From contig CP036352.1 in the NCBI GenBank assembly GCA_007753915.1, forward strand, positions 1,550,001-1,614,000: a stretch of 64,000 nucleotides of DNA, given 5' to 3'. The notes beneath the pieces are model-generated. The model did no database searches and was not told the origin of the DNA. It was given only the letters and a program-made list of their open reading frames with translations. The position numbers were made by a program, and so were the translations under genes. Within the stretch, counting starts at the first letter, position 1; the number at the start of each line of letters is the position of its first letter. The stretch is from Phycisphaerae bacterium RAS2. Lineage in GTDB: Bacteria > Planctomycetota > Phycisphaerae > UBA1845 > UTPLA1. Positions 12,450-48,010 of the stretch are shown piece by piece.

Positions 12450-12632
12450 CGTGACTCCTTTACGTAGCAATGCGGTGTCAAAGGCCGCGACCATGCGGCC
12501 GTGTGGACGCAAGCCTAAACCCGTCGTGTCGATTTAACAAGCAAAAATAAAGGGAATTCGCGGTACTGGTAGCGCTCGAACCGAGCCGCGCGCGTAAGCA
12601 AGCGGGTTCCATCCATTTGGCCACCCCAACCC

Positions 12633-12655
12633 GGTCCCTCACGGTCGCGGCTCGG
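12633..12655 (-). repeat. Dispersed GC-rich repeat (CCGAGCCGCGACCGT family), copy 1
   Basis: Read on the minus strand this begins CCGAGCCGCGACCGTGAGGG. It matches 21 of 23 positions of a second copy at 45932-45954 inside the TPP riboswitch. I recall this element as abundant in planctomycete genomes (translated fragments such as SRDREG or SLTVAAR), but I could not search for it. Confidence 0.65.
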
Positions 12656-12761
12656 ATTGTCAGGCAAACCCGGCCAGTACCGAGATCGCCGCCCATCGGG
12701 GATCTTGCCGGGGTCGCGAGGGCAAGCGCGGGTCGTGTGGAGCGGCGGATTAGTTTGGCGC

Positions 12762-20245: not shown

Positions 20246-21967
20246 ATGGCTAAGAAGCGCAAGAAGCTCGGTGAGATCCTACAGGAGCAGGGGCTGCTGT
20301 CGCGCGAGGACGCGGACCGGGCGGCTGTTTACGCGAGCAACAACCAGAAGCGCATCGGCGAAGCGCTGATCGAGCTGGAGATCGCCTCGGAGGACGATGT
20401 TTACAAAGCGCTCGCGAACCAGCATGGACTGGAATACGTCGAAATCACGAAGGGGCTGATCCCTCCCGAAGTGCTGGCCCTCGTGCCGGACAAGATATGC
20501 AAGCACAACCTGATCCTTCCGCTGGCGAGCGAGAACGGTCACATGAAAGTGATCATTCACGACCCGCTCGATCTCGACACGCTGGACATGCTGCGGTTTC
20601 GCCTGGGCGTGAGCGAGGTCATTCCCGTCATCTCGCCCCGGTCGCGCATCAAAGCGTACATCGACAAGTATCTTTCCGGCGCGGAGCGGTCGCTCGACGA
20701 GTTGTCGCGCAGTCTGGATGCCTCGGTCGACGCCTCGCTGGATCAGGACGCGCGCGGAGCCAAGAAGACCTCGGCGGCCGACGAAGACCCCGACGCTCCC
20801 ATCATCAAACTCATCAACATGATGATCAGCGAGGCCGTGCGAACGCGAGCCAGCGACATTCACGTCGAGCCGATGAACGACCGCGTGCGCGTCCGGTATC
20901 GCGTGGACGGCGTCTGCCTCGAACGGGAAAACGTGCCCAAGCGCCTGCAGAACGCCGTGACCACGCGCATGAAAATCATGGCCGGCGTGGACATCGCCGA
21001 GAAGCGCGTGCCGCAGGACGGTCGCATCAAGATGCGCATCAGCGGCAAGGACGTCGACTTTCGCGTGAGCTGCTGCCCGGCGGTGCACGGCGAGTCGATC
21101 GTGCTTCGTATCTTGCGGCCTGATTCCGCGGCCGTCGGCGTGCAGCAATTGGGCTTCGAGACAGACGACTACGAGCGATTCACGAAGATCATTTCGCGGC
21201 CGAACGGCATGTTCCTTGTGACCGGTCCGACCGGCTCCGGCAAGACGACCACGCTCTACGCCGCGCTGCAGGAACTGAATCGACCCGACAAGAAGATCAT
21301 CACCGCCGAAGACCCGGTTGAGTACGTGTTCCCCGGCATGAACCAGTGCCAGGTGCGCGAGGACATCGGCCTGGGGTTCGACAAGATTCTGCGTTCGATG
21401 TTGCGCCAGGCACCGAACATCATCCTCGTCGGTGAAATCCGCGATCTGTCGGTCGGCGAGATCGCTGTGCAGGCCGCCCTCACCGGTCACCTTGTGTTTT
21501 CGACGCTGCACACGAACGACGCCCCCAGCGCCCTGACGCGACTGACGGACATGGGCATCAAGCCGTTCCTGATCGCGAGCAGCGTGCAGGCGATCATGGC
21601 CCAGCGCCTCGTGCGCATCCTCTGCAAGGAGTGCCGCCAGCCCGACACGAATCCCGATCCCATCCAGTTGAAACTCTGCGGTTTCAAGCCCGGGCAACTG
21701 GAGGGCAAGACCATCTATCGCCCCGGCGGATGCTCGGCCTGCAGCAACACGGGGTACCGCGGCCGGCGCGGCATTTTTGAGATGCTTCTCATGAACAGCG
21801 AGCTGCGTGAGCTGGCGTTCAACCGGGCCTCGGTCACGCAGGTGCGCCGTGCGGCCAAGGCCACGGGCATGCGCACCTTGCTGGAGGACGGGCAGCGCAA
21901 GATTCTCGCCGGATCGACATCCGTCGAGGAGATCCTCCGCATCGCACAGGACGAGGTCAGCGGCTGA
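20246..21967 (+). CDS. Type IV pilus / type II secretion ATPase, PilB/GspE family (first copy)
   Basis: A 573-aa hexameric extension/secretion ATPase. An N-terminal MshEN/GspE-N domain (residues 1-150) leads to the core with Walker A GPTGSGKTTTL, the Asp box around TAEDPVEY, Walker B IILVGEIRD, and the His box TGHLVFSTLHTND. A four-Cys zinc site follows (CKEC ... CSAC), the PilB/GspE hallmark absent from PilT. I start at ATG 20246 (MAKKRKKLGEILQEQG). A pilT-like gene and a second PilB/GspE gene follow on the same strand. Confidence 0.93.
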   Translation: MAKKRKKLGEILQEQGLLSREDADRAAVYASNNQKRIGEALIELEIASEDDVYKALANQHGLEYVEITKGLIPPEVLALVPDKICKHNLILPLASENGHMKVIIHDPLDLDTLDMLRFRLGVSEVIPVISPRSRIKAYIDKYLSGAERSLDELSRSLDASVDASLDQDARGAKKTSAADEDPDAPIIKLINMMISEAVRTRASDIHVEPMNDRVRVRYRVDGVCLERENVPKRLQNAVTTRMKIMAGVDIAEKRVPQDGRIKMRISGKDVDFRVSCCPAVHGESIVLRILRPDSAAVGVQQLGFETDDYERFTKIISRPNGMFLVTGPTGSGKTTTLYAALQELNRPDKKIITAEDPVEYVFPGMNQCQVREDIGLGFDKILRSMLRQAPNIILVGEIRDLSVGEIAVQAALTGHLVFSTLHTNDAPSALTRLTDMGIKPFLIASSVQAIMAQRLVRILCKECRQPDTNPDPIQLKLCGFKPGQLEGKTIYRPGGCSACSNTGYRGRRGIFEMLLMNSELRELAFNRASVTQVRRAAKATGMRTLLEDGQRKILAGSTSVEEILRIAQDEVSG

Positions 21968-22023
21968 CGGGATTTGGATCACTAAACCAGCATGAACGCG
22001 GGCGACGGACCCGGTAAGCATCC

Positions 22024-23169
22024 ATGGCAACGATTCACATTGACCGTTTGTTGGAGACCTGCATCAAGAAGGGCGGGTCGGACATCCATATTTCCGTCGG
22101 AAGGCCGCCGGTCATTCGACTGCATGGTCGATTGCGCCAGCTCGAGACAAAGGTGCTCGAGCCGGAAGACTGTGTCGCGCTGATGAAGTCCATCACGCCC
22201 GACCGCAATCAACAGGAGCTGCAAGAGGAAGGCGGCACCGACTTCGGCTTTGCCTTCGGCGATGCAGGCCGTTTTCGTGTTGCCGTCTTTCGACAGAAGG
22301 GCAACATATCCATCGTCCTGCGTCTGATTCCCAGCCGGTTTCTGTCGTTTGAAGACATCGGTCTGCCGCCCATCTGTCGCGCCCTGTGTCGCCGGCCGCG
22401 CGGATTGTTTCTCGTCACGGGGCCGACCGGCTCCGGAAAGACGACCACGCTCGCGTCGATGTTGAACTACATCAACAACGAGATGGATCGCCACATCGTG
22501 ACGGTCGAGGACCCGATCGAGTATTACCATCAGCACAAGAAGAGCCTGATCAATCAGCGCGAAGTGGGGAACGACGTTCCCAGCTTTGCCGAAGCGCTTC
22601 GGCGCGTGCTGCGACAGGACCCGGACGTCATCCTCGTCGGTGAAATGCGCGACTTGGAGACGATCTCCAATGCCATCCTCGCGGCCGAAACCGGCCACTT
22701 GGTCTTCTCCACGCTGCATACTACGGGTTGTCAGGGAACGGTGAATCGTATCATCGATGCCTTCCCGCACGAGCAGCAGGATCAGATTCGCGTGCAGCTT
22801 TCGACCTCGCTGATCGCCGTGTTGAGCCAGGCCCTCATGCCGCGCAAGCCGTCGGGCATGGTCGCGGCGTACGAGTTCATGGTCGTGACGCCCGCCATCG
22901 CGAACCTGATCCGTGAGAACAAAACCTTCCGCATCGATTCGGCCATTCAGACCGGCAAGAAGTACGGCATGCAGTTGCTCGATGAGCACCTGTGGTCGCT
23001 GTATGAGCGAGGCTTGATCGAGGCCGATGAAATGCTCGACAAGGCGCGCCACGCATCGGAACTTCAGGAGAAGCTGGAAAAGGCCGGCAAGCTGCACGAG
23101 GCCGGCGATGCGATGATCACGCTCAAGGACGAAGCCGCCGGCGCCGAGGGCGAAAAGGGCAAGGAATAG
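22024..23169 (+). CDS. pilT: Twitching motility / pilus retraction ATPase, PilT family
   Basis: A 381-aa retraction ATPase. The N-terminus lacks a GspE-N domain and starts directly with the PAS-like N-domain (GGSDIHISVGRPPVIRLHG). Motifs are Walker A GPTGSGKTTTLASML, Walker B ILVGEMRD, the His box AETGHLVFSTLHTTG, and the PilT signature RIIDAFPHEQQDQIRVQL. There is no zinc tetracysteine. The last 30 residues are a charged tail. It lies between two PilB/GspE genes, 56 bp after the first and 76 bp before the second. Confidence 0.92.
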   Translation: MATIHIDRLLETCIKKGGSDIHISVGRPPVIRLHGRLRQLETKVLEPEDCVALMKSITPDRNQQELQEEGGTDFGFAFGDAGRFRVAVFRQKGNISIVLRLIPSRFLSFEDIGLPPICRALCRRPRGLFLVTGPTGSGKTTTLASMLNYINNEMDRHIVTVEDPIEYYHQHKKSLINQREVGNDVPSFAEALRRVLRQDPDVILVGEMRDLETISNAILAAETGHLVFSTLHTTGCQGTVNRIIDAFPHEQQDQIRVQLSTSLIAVLSQALMPRKPSGMVAAYEFMVVTPAIANLIRENKTFRIDSAIQTGKKYGMQLLDEHLWSLYERGLIEADEMLDKARHASELQEKLEKAGKLHEAGDAMITLKDEAAGAEGEKGKE

Positions 23170-23245
23170 CAAACGTAGAGTCATTGGACTTGATACCGCC
23201 GGCGGCCGCTCGATGCGGTCCATCCGGCGATGATGGAAATGCGAT

Positions 23246-24997
23246 ATGTCCGCTGCCGCACCTGCACCATCGACACGCGAGTTCAAGGGTCGCCTCCTGG
23301 GGCGCATCCTCATCAAAATGGGGAAGGTCAATCGCACGCAGGTGCATGAGGCCCTGGGCGTGCAGAAGACCAAGCGCGGCCCGCTCGGCCAGATTCTCAT
23401 CGACCTGGGCTACATCACCGAGGCCGATCTGAAACTCGCCCTCGCCGCGCAGATCGGCATGGAGCCGATCAACCTCGATGCGATGGACGTGCAGGCCGAC
23501 GTGGTCAAGCTCGTTCCGAACCAGATGGCCAATACCTATCGCATCATTCCCGTTGCCTACGATTCGGCTTCGAACACATTGAGCGTCGCCATCGCCTCGC
23601 CCGACAACTTCCAGGCGACCGACGATCTCCAGAAGCTGCTGGGCTACAACATCCGCCCGATGATCGCGTCGGAAGATCAGATCGCGACCGGGTTGAATCG
23701 GTATTACCCCGAAGGCTCGGCCCAGTCGATCAACGACCTGCTCACCGAGATCGGCGGCGACGCGGAGCTGTCCAAGTTCGAGGGTCGCGGCGAATCCATC
23801 GACCTGGAAGAGCTGAAAGAGCTGGTCAACACCAACCCGGTCAAGCAGCTGCTCAACCTCGTGCTGCTGCGAGCGATTCAGGACCACTCCAGCGACATCC
23901 ACTTCGAGCCGTTCGAGAATGAATACAAACTGCGCTATCGAATCGACGGCGTGTTGTACGAGATGGTCCCGCCGCAGCGATTCCTGGCCATGGCCATCGC
24001 CAGCCGCATCAAGGTTATGGCGAACCTCGACATTGCCGAGCGCCGCCTGCCGCAGGACGGTCGCATCAGCCTCACCGTCGCCGGCAACCCGGTGGACCTC
24101 CGCGTCGCTGTTCTGCCGACCCTGTTCGGCGAGTCGGTCGTGTTGCGTATTCTCGACCGCAGCAACGTGCAGCTCGACATCGACCGCATCGGCATGCGCG
24201 AGGACGATCTGAACGTTCTCAAGCAACTCATCAATCGCCCGCACGGCATCGTCATCAACACCGGCCCGACCGGCTCCGGCAAGACGACGACGCTCTACGC
24301 ATGCCTGAATCACCTGAACTCGCCCGATACCAAGATTCTCACCGCCGAGGACCCGGTCGAATACGACATCGACGGCATCATCCAGTGCCAGGTGAACGTC
24401 GACACGGGCATGACGTTCGCCCGCGCCCTGCGCAGCTTTCTGCGACAGGACCCGGACGTGATCCTCGTCGGTGAAATCCGCGACCTGGAGACGGCCCAGA
24501 TCGCCATTCAATCCTCACTCACGGGCCACCTAGTCTTCTCCACGCTGCACACCAACGACGCGCCGTCGGCCGTTGCCCGCTTGCTCGATCTGGGCGTCGA
24601 GCCGTTTCTGATCACCGCGACATTCGAGGCCGTCGTGGCGCAGCGCCTCGCGCGGCGCGTGTGTAAGAACTGCAAGCAGCCCTACACGCCGACGCCCGAG
24701 CAGCTCATGGAATTGCAGCTTCGCCCGGAGGACGTCGAGGGTCGCACGTTCTACTTCGGCGCCGGCTGTGACTATTGCAACGGCACCGGCTATCGCGGCC
24801 GCGTCGGTATTTTTGAGACGATGGTCTTTAATGAAGAAATCCGCGACTTGGTCATGAACAACGCCTCGACCGGCCTGCTCCGCGAGGCCGCCCAGCGCAA
24901 CGGCATGCGCACCCTGCGCGAGAGCGGCCTGCTGGCCATTTATGACGGTGTCACGACAATTGAAGAAGTCGTGAAGGAGACGGTGCTGACGGAGTAG
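23246..24997 (+). CDS. Type IV pilus / type II secretion ATPase, PilB/GspE family (second copy)
   Basis: A 583-aa PilB/GspE ATPase, clearly a divergent paralog of the gene at 20246. The N-terminal MshEN domain (LGRILIKMGKVNRTQVHEAL) leads to Walker A GPTGSGKTTTLYA, TAEDPVEYDI, Walker B ILVGEIRDLETAQIA, and the zinc cysteines CKNC ... CDYC. The sequence RQDPDVILVGEIRD is closer to classical PilB than the first copy's RQAPNIILVGEIRD. One copy may serve pili and the other a type II secretion system; which is which cannot be decided here. Confidence 0.93.
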   Translation: MSAAAPAPSTREFKGRLLGRILIKMGKVNRTQVHEALGVQKTKRGPLGQILIDLGYITEADLKLALAAQIGMEPINLDAMDVQADVVKLVPNQMANTYRIIPVAYDSASNTLSVAIASPDNFQATDDLQKLLGYNIRPMIASEDQIATGLNRYYPEGSAQSINDLLTEIGGDAELSKFEGRGESIDLEELKELVNTNPVKQLLNLVLLRAIQDHSSDIHFEPFENEYKLRYRIDGVLYEMVPPQRFLAMAIASRIKVMANLDIAERRLPQDGRISLTVAGNPVDLRVAVLPTLFGESVVLRILDRSNVQLDIDRIGMREDDLNVLKQLINRPHGIVINTGPTGSGKTTTLYACLNHLNSPDTKILTAEDPVEYDIDGIIQCQVNVDTGMTFARALRSFLRQDPDVILVGEIRDLETAQIAIQSSLTGHLVFSTLHTNDAPSAVARLLDLGVEPFLITATFEAVVAQRLARRVCKNCKQPYTPTPEQLMELQLRPEDVEGRTFYFGAGCDYCNGTGYRGRVGIFETMVFNEEIRDLVMNNASTGLLREAAQRNGMRTLRESGLLAIYDGVTTIEEVVKETVLTE

Positions 24998-40971: not shown

Positions 40972-42024
40972 GTGTCACTGGGAACATTCCGCGAGTTGTT
41001 CGCGTACAACGATTGGGCGTGGGACGCTGTCGCGGGGCCGGCGGCGGAATTGCCGGCCGACAAACTCGATCAGGTCTTCGACATGGGGCCGGGCACGATC
41101 CGCAAGACGCTCCATCACATCTGGGGTGCGGAGAAAGTCTGGCTCGACCGCTGGCGGGAGGGGGGCAAGCCGCCGTTTGCCGAGTTTGACCCGGCGACGT
41201 CGATCAGTGGACTCACGACGCTGCGCCGCGAGACGTGCGCCCAGCGTGAGTCGTTTCTGGCGACGCTCACCGACTCCGACCTGCCGCGCGAGATCACGTT
41301 TACCACGATCCGCGACAACACGACGTACACCCTCCCGCTCGCGCCGCTCATGCTGCACGTGTGTCATCACGGCGTGCACCATCGGGCGCAGGTGCTGAAC
41401 ATGCTCAAGCGGGTCGGCGCGACGATCCCTCCGCGCGGCATCGATTACCTTTTCATGAAAATGAAGGCCCTCAAGGCGGACCCGGCCGAGACCGATCGGC
41501 CGCGCTTGAGCCTTCTCATGATCCGCGAATTGTTCGACAACGGCGACTGGGCGCAGCAGCGCGTGCTCGCGGTGGCCTGCAAACTCCCTGCGACGGCGCT
41601 GGACCGCGAATTTGACATGGGTCTGAAGACGATCCGCGCGACGCTGCTGCATGTGCTCTACGCCGAGTCATGGTGGCTGGAGAATTGGATCGGAAAGACG
41701 AAGCCCGAGTTCAAGGAGTTCGACGCGAGCCTTGCCATGGAAGACCTGCCGCGCCGGCACACCGAACACGCGGCCGCACGAAATGCGTTCCTGTGTTCGC
41801 TTAGCGACGGCGATTTGAATCGCATGGTCCACACGCAGCCCGCACCGGGCAAGGAATTCGTCTTCCCGCTGGGGCCGTCGATGCTGCAATTGTGGCACCA
41901 CGGGGCGCACCATCGGGCGCAGCTGGTGAACATGCTGCGCCACGTCGGCGTAGCGCTGCCGGAGGTGGACGTGATCAAGTGGCTCTTGGAGAAGCGCGTC
42001 GCGGGCGAAGGAGGGCGTGCATGA
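40972..42024 (+). CDS. Tandem DinB-superfamily protein (two domains)
   Basis: A 350-aa protein with two four-helix DinB domains (residues about 1-160 and 175-335). Each carries the metal-binding histidines: LHHIWGAEKVW with CHHGVHHRAQ, and LLHVLYAESWW with WHHGAHHRAQ. Each starts with the related FDMGxxTIRxTL helix, showing an internal duplication. The family includes thiol-dependent S-transferases and damage-inducible proteins of unknown chemistry. GTG 40972 is preceded by GGGAGGG. The next DinB gene follows with an ATGA overlap. Confidence 0.85.
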   Translation: MSLGTFRELFAYNDWAWDAVAGPAAELPADKLDQVFDMGPGTIRKTLHHIWGAEKVWLDRWREGGKPPFAEFDPATSISGLTTLRRETCAQRESFLATLTDSDLPREITFTTIRDNTTYTLPLAPLMLHVCHHGVHHRAQVLNMLKRVGATIPPRGIDYLFMKMKALKADPAETDRPRLSLLMIRELFDNGDWAQQRVLAVACKLPATALDREFDMGLKTIRATLLHVLYAESWWLENWIGKTKPEFKEFDASLAMEDLPRRHTEHAAARNAFLCSLSDGDLNRMVHTQPAPGKEFVFPLGPSMLQLWHHGAHHRAQLVNMLRHVGVALPEVDVIKWLLEKRVAGEGGRA

Positions 42025-42518
42025 CCGTCGAATCGTTTGCCCCGCTGTTTGAATACTCCGACTTCGCCAACGCCGCGCTATTGGATGCGAGCAAGGGTTT
42101 GAGCGATGCGCAGCTCGACACCTCGTTCGATATGGGCATGGGCACACTGCGAAAGACTCTGAAGCATATTCTCGATGGCGAAGCTGTGTGGTTGGCACGG
42201 TGGAAGGGGGAGGCCGAGACACCGTGGCCGCCATATGAAACGGCAATGTCTGTTGCGGAGTTGCGCGATGCCTTCGCAGCGACGAGTCGGGCACGTGGCG
42301 CATTCGTGGCGAAACTGAAGGACGCCGATCTGGCTCGGGTCATCACCTATCGCGACTCGAAGGGCAGCCTCTTCTCCGCGACGCTCGGCGACATGCTGAT
42401 CCAGGGCTTCGTGCACTCAACGCACCATCGGGCGCAGGCCGTCAACATGCTCCGCCGCCTCGGCGCGGGCCTGGTGGAGCTGGATTACATGACGCGCGTG
42501 CGCAAGGCCGTTACGTGA
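42021..42518 (+). CDS. DinB-superfamily protein (third tandem domain)
   Basis: A 165-aa single-domain DinB protein. Histidines lie in LKHILDGEAVW and FVHSTHHRAQ, and the FDMGMGTLRKTL helix is shared with the neighbour, so it is a third copy of the same duplication. It overlaps the upstream two-domain gene by ATGA and the downstream methyltransferase region closely. Possibly acts with the neighbour as one complex. Confidence 0.83.
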   Translation: MTVESFAPLFEYSDFANAALLDASKGLSDAQLDTSFDMGMGTLRKTLKHILDGEAVWLARWKGEAETPWPPYETAMSVAELRDAFAATSRARGAFVAKLKDADLARVITYRDSKGSLFSATLGDMLIQGFVHSTHHRAQAVNMLRRLGAGLVELDYMTRVRKAVT

Positions 42519-45846: not shown

Positions 45847-45993
45847 TTCGCTAGGGGTGTCCACTCGAATGGACTGAGATTCGGCTCCGAGCAGCCGGAA
45901 CCCTTGGAACCTGATCACCGAAGCGTCAGTTCCGAGCCGCGACCGTTAGGGAGCGGGCTTTCGGTGCTGCGACAAGGTGCGTAGGGAAGCGAA
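45847..45993 (+). promoter_or_regulatory. TPP riboswitch with repeat insertion in P4/P5
   Basis: All the conserved aptamer blocks are present: AGGGGTG, CTGAGAT (45874-45880), ACCCTT (45900-45905), GAACCTGATC (45907-45916) and GCGTAGGGA (45979-45987). P1 is formed by TTCGCT (45847-45852) and AGCGAA (45988-45993). Between CACC (45916-45919) and GGTG (45976-45979), where about six loop nucleotides are usual, there are 56 nt containing a dispersed repeat. The aptamer ends 3 nt before ATG 45997, so there is no room for a separate expression platform. The AGGGA at 45983-45987 is the only plausible Shine-Dalgarno, which implies direct translational control. Confidence 0.85.
45932..45957 (+). repeat. 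Dispersed GC-rich repeat (CCGAGCCGCGACCGT family), copy 2
   Basis: Begins CCGAGCCGCGACCGTTAGGG and matches 21 of 23 positions of the copy at 12633-12655 (opposite strand). It lies inside the TPP aptamer's P4/P5 region and accounts for about half of the 56-nt insertion. Confidence 0.65.
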
Positions 45994-45996
45994 GGC

Positions 45997-46371
45997 ATGT
46001 CCGAGCGTCGCCCACTTCGCATCGCAGTCGCCGGGCCGTACACCGCGGCCACCGCATCCGAGCGCAAGGTCAACCTCGACAAGATGAATCAGGCGGCCGC
46101 GCGGCTGCTGGCCGCTGGGCACATTCCCTTGATCGGCGTGAATGCGGCACTGCCGGTGGTCGATCAGGCTGGGATGCCCGATCCGGAGAACGACCTACCG
46201 TCGCCGCAACGGCGTGAAGCGATAATGAAAATGTCCATGGCATTGATCGAGGCATGCGAAGCCATTCTCATCATCGGCGAATCTCCCGGCGCAAACATGG
46301 AGCGAGATCGAATCGCTTCAAAGGGGCTGCCGGTGTACAAGTCATTCGCCGAGATTCCGCCTGCTCGATGA
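45997..46371 (+). CDS. DUF4406 / nucleoside 2-deoxyribosyltransferase-like protein
   Basis: A 124-aa protein. The N-terminal [15 protein letters not shown] matches the IYLAGPYT start of the family and the C-terminal [13 protein letters not shown] holds the Glu that serves as nucleophile in related N-glycosidases and deoxyribosyltransferases. Relatives such as Rcl/MilB cleave N-glycosidic bonds of nucleotides. It is directly under the TPP riboswitch and 19 bp before thiC, so a role in thiamin pyrimidine metabolism is a fair inference, but no such function is known to me. The start ATG 45997 is fixed by the riboswitch position. Confidence 0.75.
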
Positions 46372-46390: not shown

Positions 46391-48010
46391 ATGACCCAAC
46401 TCGAATCCGCCCGAAAGGGCGTCATCACACCCGAAATGATCCGCGTCGCGCAGCGCGAATGCACCACGCCGGAATTCATTCGTGACGAAGTCGCCCGCGG
46501 CCGCCTCGTCATCCCCGCGAACGTGCGGCACCTCGCCGGCAGCGGCGGACTCAAGCCACAGGCTACAAGCCCCAAGCCCCAATCAGCCACCGGCCATCCC
46601 GGCCACCGCGCCGATGCGTCATTCTGGGTGAATCAATCCGTCGCCCAGCGCTGGGCCGTCATCAGCGACCCGGACTATTCGCGCGGCGAGCGCGCCCCCA
46701 AGCGGCTCGACCCAATGGGCATCGGCCGCATGGTGACTACCAAGATCAACGCCAACATCGGCGCATCGCCGGTCGCCAGCGGCACGCATGAGGAAGTTGA
46801 GAAGCTCATGTGGGCGCAGAAATACGGCGCCGACACGCTGATGGATCTCTCCACCGGGGGCAACCTCGTCGAATGCCGCCAAGCCATCATCGACCACAGT
46901 ACCATTCCCATCGGCACGGTGCCGATCTACAGCATGATCATCGGCCGAAGCATCGAAGAATTGACGTATGACGATATTCTCCGCGAGGTCGAGCGGCAGG
47001 CACAACAGGGCGTGGACTACTTCACCATTCACGCCGGCGTGCTGCTGGAGAATCTGCACCTGATCCGCAAACGCATCACCGGCCTCGTTTCGCGCGGCGG
47101 CTCGCTGCTGGCCAAGTGGATGATTCACCACAACAAGCAGAACCCGATGTACACGTTGTTTGACGACATCTCCGCCATCATGCGGCAGTACGACGTGACG
47201 TATTCGCTGGGCGACGGCGTGCGGCCGGGGTGCCTGGCCGACGCCGGAGACGCGGCGCAAATTGCGGAGTTGCAAACGCTCGGCGAGCTGACACATCGAG
47301 CGCGCGAAGCCGGCGTGCAGGTCATGGTCGAGGGGCCGGGCCACGTGCCGCTGCACGAGATCGCGTGGAACATGCAGATTGAGCAGCGCATCTGCGACGA
47401 TGCGCCCTTTTACGTGCTCGGCCCGCTCGTGACCGACGTCTTCCCCGGCTACGACCACATCACCAGTTGCATCGGCGCGACCGAGGCGGCCCGCGCCGGT
47501 GCGGCCATGCTCTGCTACGTCACGCCGAAGGAGCACGTGGGCCTGCCGAAGGCCGACGACGTGAAGCAGGGTTGCATCGCGTACAAGATCGCGGCTCACG
47601 CGGGCGACATCGCGCGCGGCGTGCAGGGCGTGCGGCAGTGGGATGACGACATGAGCAAGGCCCGGGCGGCGCTGAACTGGCCGAAGCAGTTCGAGATCGC
47701 CTTTGACGGCGAGACGGCCCGGGCGCTGCACGATGAGGACCTCGACGTTGATACGGATTTCTGCGCGATGTGCGGCCACGACTGGTGCAGCATGCGCATT
47801 AGCAAGGAGATCACCGATTGGGCCAGCGGCAAGGCCGACGGGTTTGTGCCGCTGAAAGTCGCGGCGAAATCACCCGGCCTGACGCCGGAGCAGGTTCATT
47901 ATCTCGCGCACCGCGGCAAGAAGCACGACTGTCACAGCGACATCGTGGCGGACGATGAGGAGGCGAAGCGCGTGCAGCGGGAGTATGTGCAGCTCAAGGC
48001 CAATGCATAG
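46391..48010 (+). CDS. thiC: Phosphomethylpyrimidine synthase
   Basis: A 539-aa radical SAM enzyme converting aminoimidazole ribotide to HMP-P, the thiamin pyrimidine precursor. Blocks visible are [65 protein letters not shown] and the [4Fe-4S] motif CAMCGHDWC (CX2CX4C) near the C-terminus. Residues about 47-106, between IPANVRH and LDPMGIGR, form an insertion of about 60 residues relative to the ThiC sequences I recall; part of it is the repeat-like [19 protein letters not shown] lies 8 nt before ATG. Controlled by the upstream TPP riboswitch. Confidence 0.96.
46547..46606 (+). repeat. Repeat-derived segment inside thiC
   Basis: The stretch CAAGCCACAGGCTACAAGCC followed by CCAAGCCCC has tandem AAGCC units and is read in frame as [12 protein letters not shown] (residues 53-64). 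I recall similar AAGCCTCAAGCC-type elements from other bacterial genomes. It lies in a nonessential-looking loop of ThiC. Confidence 0.5.

Follow-up and report, generated by a model that had tools for sequence, protein, structure and literature searches.

A dispersed REP-like repeat in the extended P5 arm of the TPP riboswitch aptamer that precedes thiC, and repeats in the same loop of related Planctomycetota

The window, i.e. the whole stretch of 64,000 nucleotides analysed here (G000:C1:1550001-1614000, from a genome of 4.32 Mb in one contig), carries a TPP riboswitch aptamer with an extended P5 arm (45847..45993, plus strand, like all the elements of this paragraph). Directly 3' of it lies an ORF of 124 aa (45997..46371), similar to DUF4406 at 20.2 bits for a cut-off of 22, and then thiC (46391..48010; 539 aa, PF01964, 593.5 bits): the aptamer is linked to a thiamine gene, found beyond the first ORF. 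P1 pairs TTCGCT (45847..45852) with AGCGAA (45988..45993), in the fold (pair probabilities 0.40-0.91) as in the alignment to our model R1 described below. The conserved CTGAGA block (45874..45879) is recognised by its sequence and aligns to both the RF00059 and R1 models. P5 pairs CACC (45916..45919) with GGTG (45976..45979) at a probability of 0.98-1.0 and is backed by pairing counts among relatives, its third pair being changed among 68 aptamers. Inside P5 we propose a helix P6, GCGTCAG (45923..45929) with CTGCGAC (45967..45973), drawn from the MFE fold and present in the consensus fold of seven relatives. The P6 loop holds a singlet of a repeat, REP1 (CCGAGCCGCGACCGTTAGGGAGCGG, 45932..45956), without mismatch to its pattern and with a hairpin predicted at 45932-45964. 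Finally the AGGGA of the aptamer (45983..45987), 9 nt before the ATG at 45997, probably serves as a ribosome-binding site.

The sequence-only reading described a TPP aptamer with all its conserved blocks and the P1 TTCGCT/AGCGAA, in which a repeat found elsewhere in the window might have landed; this observation, a TPP aptamer carrying a dispersed repeat, is confirmed. The P5 strands enclose 56 nt, and the conserved blocks, P1 and P5 are all present. RF00059, proposed by that reading as a check, finds the aptamer as its sole match in the genome at E 0.001, but with 38.7 bits (E 6.9e-6) it stays under the gathering score of 54.3, at which no match occurs over the whole window. The alignment covers model positions 1-105, and the 3' J2/4-P1 strand is misplaced onto the TAGGGAGCGG of the repeat. 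We built the model R1 from seven repeat-free aptamers of the same family with a short P5 arm, leaving the window sequence out. Over the window R1 gives one match, with the same ends as the aptamer (45847-45993) and P1 at both true ends, at 86.8 bits and an E-value of 6.8e-21—rough, as for all home-built models of this kind; the alignment takes in all 112 positions, with the conserved blocks and P1-P5 in order.

A second copy of REP1 lies on the minus strand of the window (12631..12655, one mismatch); the two regions, 12630-12656 and 45931-45957, are complementary at 93% over 27 nt; a match between them, at 21 of 23 positions, had been noticed from the sequence. The repeat had also been supposed to be dispersed and of a mobile type, and the genome bears this out: with up to 3 mismatches allowed, the 25-mer occurs 86 times in the 4.32 Mb of G000, 43 per strand, and the reversed-pattern control not once. 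Eleven inverted doublets are found within 200 nt, nine of them measuring 116-118 nt in total, when random placement yields a mean of 0.097 and a maximum of 3 (1000 runs); no pair occurs in the opposite order. A hairpin is predicted for the window copy and for the dispersed copies alike. One of the eight Y1_Tnp loci (L036/L165) is flanked on both sides by inverted REP1 copies, and its open frame contains NHLHVVV, which we take to be the HUH motif; of the remaining seven, six are without any REP1 match and one has a single distant match with 4 mismatches. A short dispersed palindrome, inverted doublets of near-constant spacing and a Y1_Tnp gene between copies are the features of REP/REPIN families: by these sequence features the repeat is a REP of a REPIN/RAYT-type family, its riboswitch copy being a singlet and not a doublet. 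The REP1 copies displayed start with CCGAG, CAGAG or near forms. When 40 of the 89 repeat loci (REP1, REP3 and REP4, no REP2 locus) were scanned for known RNAs at gathering score, only two tRNAs appeared; L002 contains both of them, at over 100 nt from its REP. The family maximum of the REP1 pattern belongs to the relative G012, with 231 matches when no more than 1 mismatch is allowed, tandem clusters included. Elsewhere in the window, three similar segments spaced by about 520 nt (41333-42484) are probably tandem paralogous genes, and three others (21180-24613), one of which encodes a stretch similar to GPTGSGKTT, are probably ATPase paralogues.

To place the arm among relatives, we note that RF00059 matched 13 of the 17 genomes of the window's family (f1) at E 0.001 and, at E 0.01 with stricter filters, 71 of the 114 genomes of the order, of which only 8 pass the gathering cut-off. 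The aptamer of G006, two loops of which contain repeats, and the aptamer of G012 were not reported by it; both were found by motif, the latter at the thiC locus. The set comprises 74 aptamers from 73 genomes, of which 71, belonging to 70 genomes, fitted the parsing pattern; the unparsed ones, L138 (G004), L105 (G088) and L121 (G018), are left out of the arm-length, pairing and enrichment counts. Each of the 71 parsed aptamers, and hence each of the 15 parsed from the family, has an extended P5 arm, with 13-120 nt inside P5 (median 36) for about 6 nt in the RF00059 consensus. An extension unique to G000 is thus ruled out. In the family, eight repeat-free aptamers have 19-26 nt inside P5 and six repeat-bearing ones 54-79 nt; G012 has 81 nt and the unparsed G004 about 46 nt by eye, in both cases with no repeat recognised. 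The sequence-only reading was right on the 56 nt but not on their origin: the REP replaced no short canonical loop, and since the repeat-free arms of the family already measure 19-26 nt, no more than about 30 of these 56 nt are an addition. To judge from these arms, the extension is older than the REP. An extension common to relatives together with a repeat that is not dispersed would speak against a mobile repeat; here the extension is shared and the repeat is dispersed. On the whole the earlier interpretation is partly supported.

Pairing was counted over 68 aptamers, the P1 pattern having failed in G005, G066 and G076 as well. The parsing pattern demands CA...TG, so that pairs 1 and 2 of P5 are paired by construction and uninformative. 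At the third pair, 12 aptamers have C-G and the other 56 have G-C; a change that always keeps the pairing speaks for P5. At the fourth, 52 of the 68 are paired. Over its four pairs 94.1% of the cells of P5 are paired versus a mean of 79.7% with shuffled partners; for P1, picked as the best-pairing candidate, the figures are 84.3% and 63.7%. P6 undergoes two-sided changes in four of its five pairs among the seven relatives; broken cells also occur, and the covariation term of this fold is only -0.2. The seven short-arm relatives retain CACC and CGA-GGTG beside P5, the base ahead of the 3' P5 strand differing in G000 (CAA for CGA); as a guess, these elements may form a docking element. With R1, the repeat-bearing aptamers score 95.4 (G015), 93.4 (G002), 88.9 (G013), 80.4 (G006) and 79.5 bits (G009), and those of the CAGC type 31.5 (G004), 25.3 (G011) and 18.7 bits (G012). 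In G001, the closest and sole same-genus relative, RF00059 has no match at E 0.001, and neither a motif search of the 12 kb that precede thiC nor R1 on L164/L053 brought up an aptamer; the switch is therefore dispensable in this genome. A gene that looks by eye like a transposase stands there on the opposite strand, just ahead of thiC (L053, L164).

The P5-P6 loop holds a dispersed repeat in six of the 15 parsed family aptamers: REP1 in G000, G015 and G006, REP2 (GGGAGAGGGNNNGGGYGAGGG) in G013 and G009, REP4 (GAGGCCTGAGGCTTGAGRCC) in G002. In other families a further repeat, REP3 (TGTGGCACCGGTTTNNAACCGGTG), occupies the loop of G046 (0 mismatches), G081 (2) and, only at 4 mismatches, G021; in G041 and G030 degenerate copies were judged by eye, the palindrome of G041 having one extra base. 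The host genomes, counted with their own riboswitch copy where the pattern fits, have 86 (G000), 28 (G006) and 6 (G015) matches for REP1, 22 (G013) and 2 (G009) for REP2, 78 (G046), 130 (G081), 16 (G041), 12 (G021) and 19 (G030) for REP3, and 48 (G002) for REP4; with so few copies, G009 and G015 are weak as dispersed cases. Every reversed control gave 0, except for one match in G014, in the REP1 count covering G015. The aptamer of G006 (L166, 2374-2573, minus strand) combines an inverted REP3-like pair in L3 with REP1 in L5.

REP1-REP3 are matched in the loops of 7 of the 70 parsed aptamers (3554 loop bases, G006 not counted), versus a mean of 0.01 and a maximum of 1 matching aptamer with shuffled loops (100 runs), an enrichment with a bias, since it was in these very loops that REP2-REP4 were recognised. 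The rest of the aptamers has no match in 6131 bases; in the 350 nt upstream (23881 bases), L112 is the one locus with strong matches, three in number with 0-1 mismatches, and four further loci have a weak match each, with 3-4 mismatches. Counted by class and family, the sequences call for at least five separate insertion events: REP1, REP2 and REP4 in f1, REP3 in f3 and REP3 in f8. The loop thus seems to be a site of repeated intake of genomic repeats, the core of the switch being left intact.

For REP1, these events might be fewer than its three hosts suggest, if a single entry into the loop took place in an ancestor shared by ten family genomes, followed by loss or replacement of the repeat. 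G000, G015 and G006 are indeed alike in the position and orientation of the repeat and in its P6 flanks, and the six repeat-bearing family genomes belong to a single group of ten genomes in the thiC trees (88/87 on DNA, 85/93 on protein), which are based on one gene and poorly supported at depth. We nevertheless regard a single entry as doubtful, though conceivable: G015 groups with the short-loop G014 and G016 (100/100 on DNA), the riboswitch copy of G000 is the common form of this genome, with no mismatch, and the CAGAG form of the G006 copy is common within G006. In any case REP2, REP4, and REP3 in two families require separate events.

The loop might also be more than neutral, either attracting repeats, with hairpin DNA as a transposition target, or keeping those that stabilise the arm. 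The distribution reported above—seven of 70 loops, nothing elsewhere in the aptamers and one strong upstream locus—would agree with this, as would the single orientation of REP1 and REP2 in five aptamers; besides, the three riboswitch REP1 hairpins have 10-12 further flank pairs, when 68 dispersed copies have a mean of 6.9. On the other hand, the enrichment is biased as said, a repeat-free core is explained by purifying selection, and a shared orientation in five of five cases, even when these are independent, would arise with a two-sided chance of 1/16. As for the flank pairs, 10-12 falls inside the 0-15 range of the dispersed copies, and is therefore no clear sign of structural adaptation. 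An active role of the loop is thus unlikely. We lend as little credit to the idea that the P5-P6 hairpin is a true target of REP-type transposition, in which the docking arm would have been repeatedly rebuilt from mobile palindromes, some of them becoming structural.

More unlikely still is a REP that broke or rewired the switch, by offering an alternative partner to P5 and a decoy 3' strand to P1 (TAGGGAGCGG), with an abnormal response as a consequence. The letters for both alternatives are present, RF00059 itself is drawn to the decoy, and G001, the closest relative, is without aptamer match. However, the fold predicted for G000 retains P5 at 0.98-1.0, P4 at 0.88-0.89, P1 at 0.40-0.91 and P2 at 0.98, and its P1 is not weaker than in the repeat-free G014 and G016. 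The pairing of CACCGAA (45916-45922) with TTCGGTG (45960-45966), which the sequence-only reading saw as a competitor of the normal closing pair, does not survive this prediction: its probability is 0.000 at all seven pairs, versus 0.98-1.0 for the four normal P5 pairs, and the decoy P1 is likewise at 0.000. To judge from its score with R1, the core has kept the conservation seen in repeat-free relatives, and the repeat-bearing G015, G002, G013, G006 and G009 score well with this model too (79.5-95.4 bits). For the repeat-bearing G015 the predicted helices are weaker (P5 0.49-0.69, P4 0.68, P2 0.40-0.46), so that the prediction does not make every insert harmless. In G000, the folding model indicates that the REP most likely stands as a hairpin of its own on the arm.

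That the loop hairpin be a lineage-specific P5 extension resembling the repeat by chance deserves practically no credence and is refuted by the copy counts: the P5 arms of the order do vary greatly in sequence and from 13 to 120 nt in length, but 25 of the 25 pattern positions fit an 86-copy family whose reversed control is 0, and shuffled loops do not come near the seven matches observed.

We thus favour, as fairly probable, a translational OFF switch that tolerates a REP hairpin on its P6 loop, other lineages having independently taken other repeats. The aptamer would bind TPP and govern the translation of the gene ahead of thiC: with TPP bound, P1 and the J2/4 strand would close and hide the AGGGA placed 9 nt before the ATG at 45997; with TPP absent, this ribosome-binding site would be free. 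The P5 arm would, in this order of Planctomycetota, extend beyond P5 into an additional helix, P6. In G000 a REP singlet, presumably inserted by a transposase, would form its own hairpin in the P6 loop and be tolerated there in a probably neutral way, with the pocket, P1 and P5 unmoved; different dispersed repeats would have entered the same loop independently in other lineages. An ATG is found 3-10 nt past GGGAA in 12 of the 15 family aptamers, a GTG in one and no start codon in two. The closeness of the ATG in these 12 is the reason why we consider the AGGGA of the aptamer as probably a ribosome site, hidden on TPP binding. The start codon behind the f1 aptamers mostly reads ATGTC.

In 9 of the 12 family aptamers with an ATG, the frame that it opens is just 15-45 aa long, so that the control of thiC may be indirect; in many relatives, to go by these frames, the switch may act via a leader ORF as expression platform. 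The identity of the gene behind the aptamer changes between genomes. In L040 (G014) the first long frame behind the aptamer starts, after upstream residues, with MPGTHSKLLYHVVFSTKRRQMM, and by eye resembles an IS200-type transposase. ThiC itself has an N-terminal linker, from LAGSxG to GHPGHR, strongly variable in length and sequence across the 17 family genomes; in G003, G004, G005, G006 and G010 it bears repetitive-looking in-frame insertions, e.g. ISNLKSEISNFKS in G004, which give the impression that dispersed repeats made their way into the coding sequence as well.

Taken separately the parts are ordinary, a known riboswitch class and an arm extended throughout the order; what is unusual is their recurring conjunction with dispersed repeats. 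The window aptamer shares with the TPP riboswitch RF00059 the conserved blocks, the order of P1-P5 and the place ahead of thiC, and differs from it by 56 nt inside P5 instead of about 6, a score below gathering and a 3' end that leads straight into a start codon. Dispersed repeats are tolerated within functional RNAs or protein genes elsewhere: STRR repeats sit in the RNase P RNA of cyanobacteria, and Rickettsia palindromic elements in genes. Here the host is a riboswitch, and several unrelated repeat classes share one loop.

REPINs, according to PMC3116915, are inverted doublets with transposase genes nearby; REP1 has in common with this REP/REPIN-RAYT system a short dispersed palindrome, inverted doublets of near-constant spacing and copies beside a Y1_Tnp gene, and differs in the window by a singlet copy inside a structured regulatory RNA. 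PMC3733652 counts Planctomycetes among the reported hosts of small palindromic repeats tagged GTAG or CGTC; REP1 is likewise a small palindrome, the displayed copies of which start with CCGAG or CAGAG. We recognised no report of a REP or other dispersed repeat inside a riboswitch in the literature searched, which covers a minority of subscription journals. The present aptamers also point to a blind spot of detection, RF00059 having missed G006 and G012 and only 8 of 71 matched genomes passing its cut-off.

In the Arabidopsis TPP aptamer, the docking of the L5 arm with P3 completes ligand binding, according to PMC4775224. The unrelated repeat classes found in the L5 arm, in three families of one order, are natural insertion variants of a riboswitch, and could show how a peripheral RNA domain grows and what docking tolerates.
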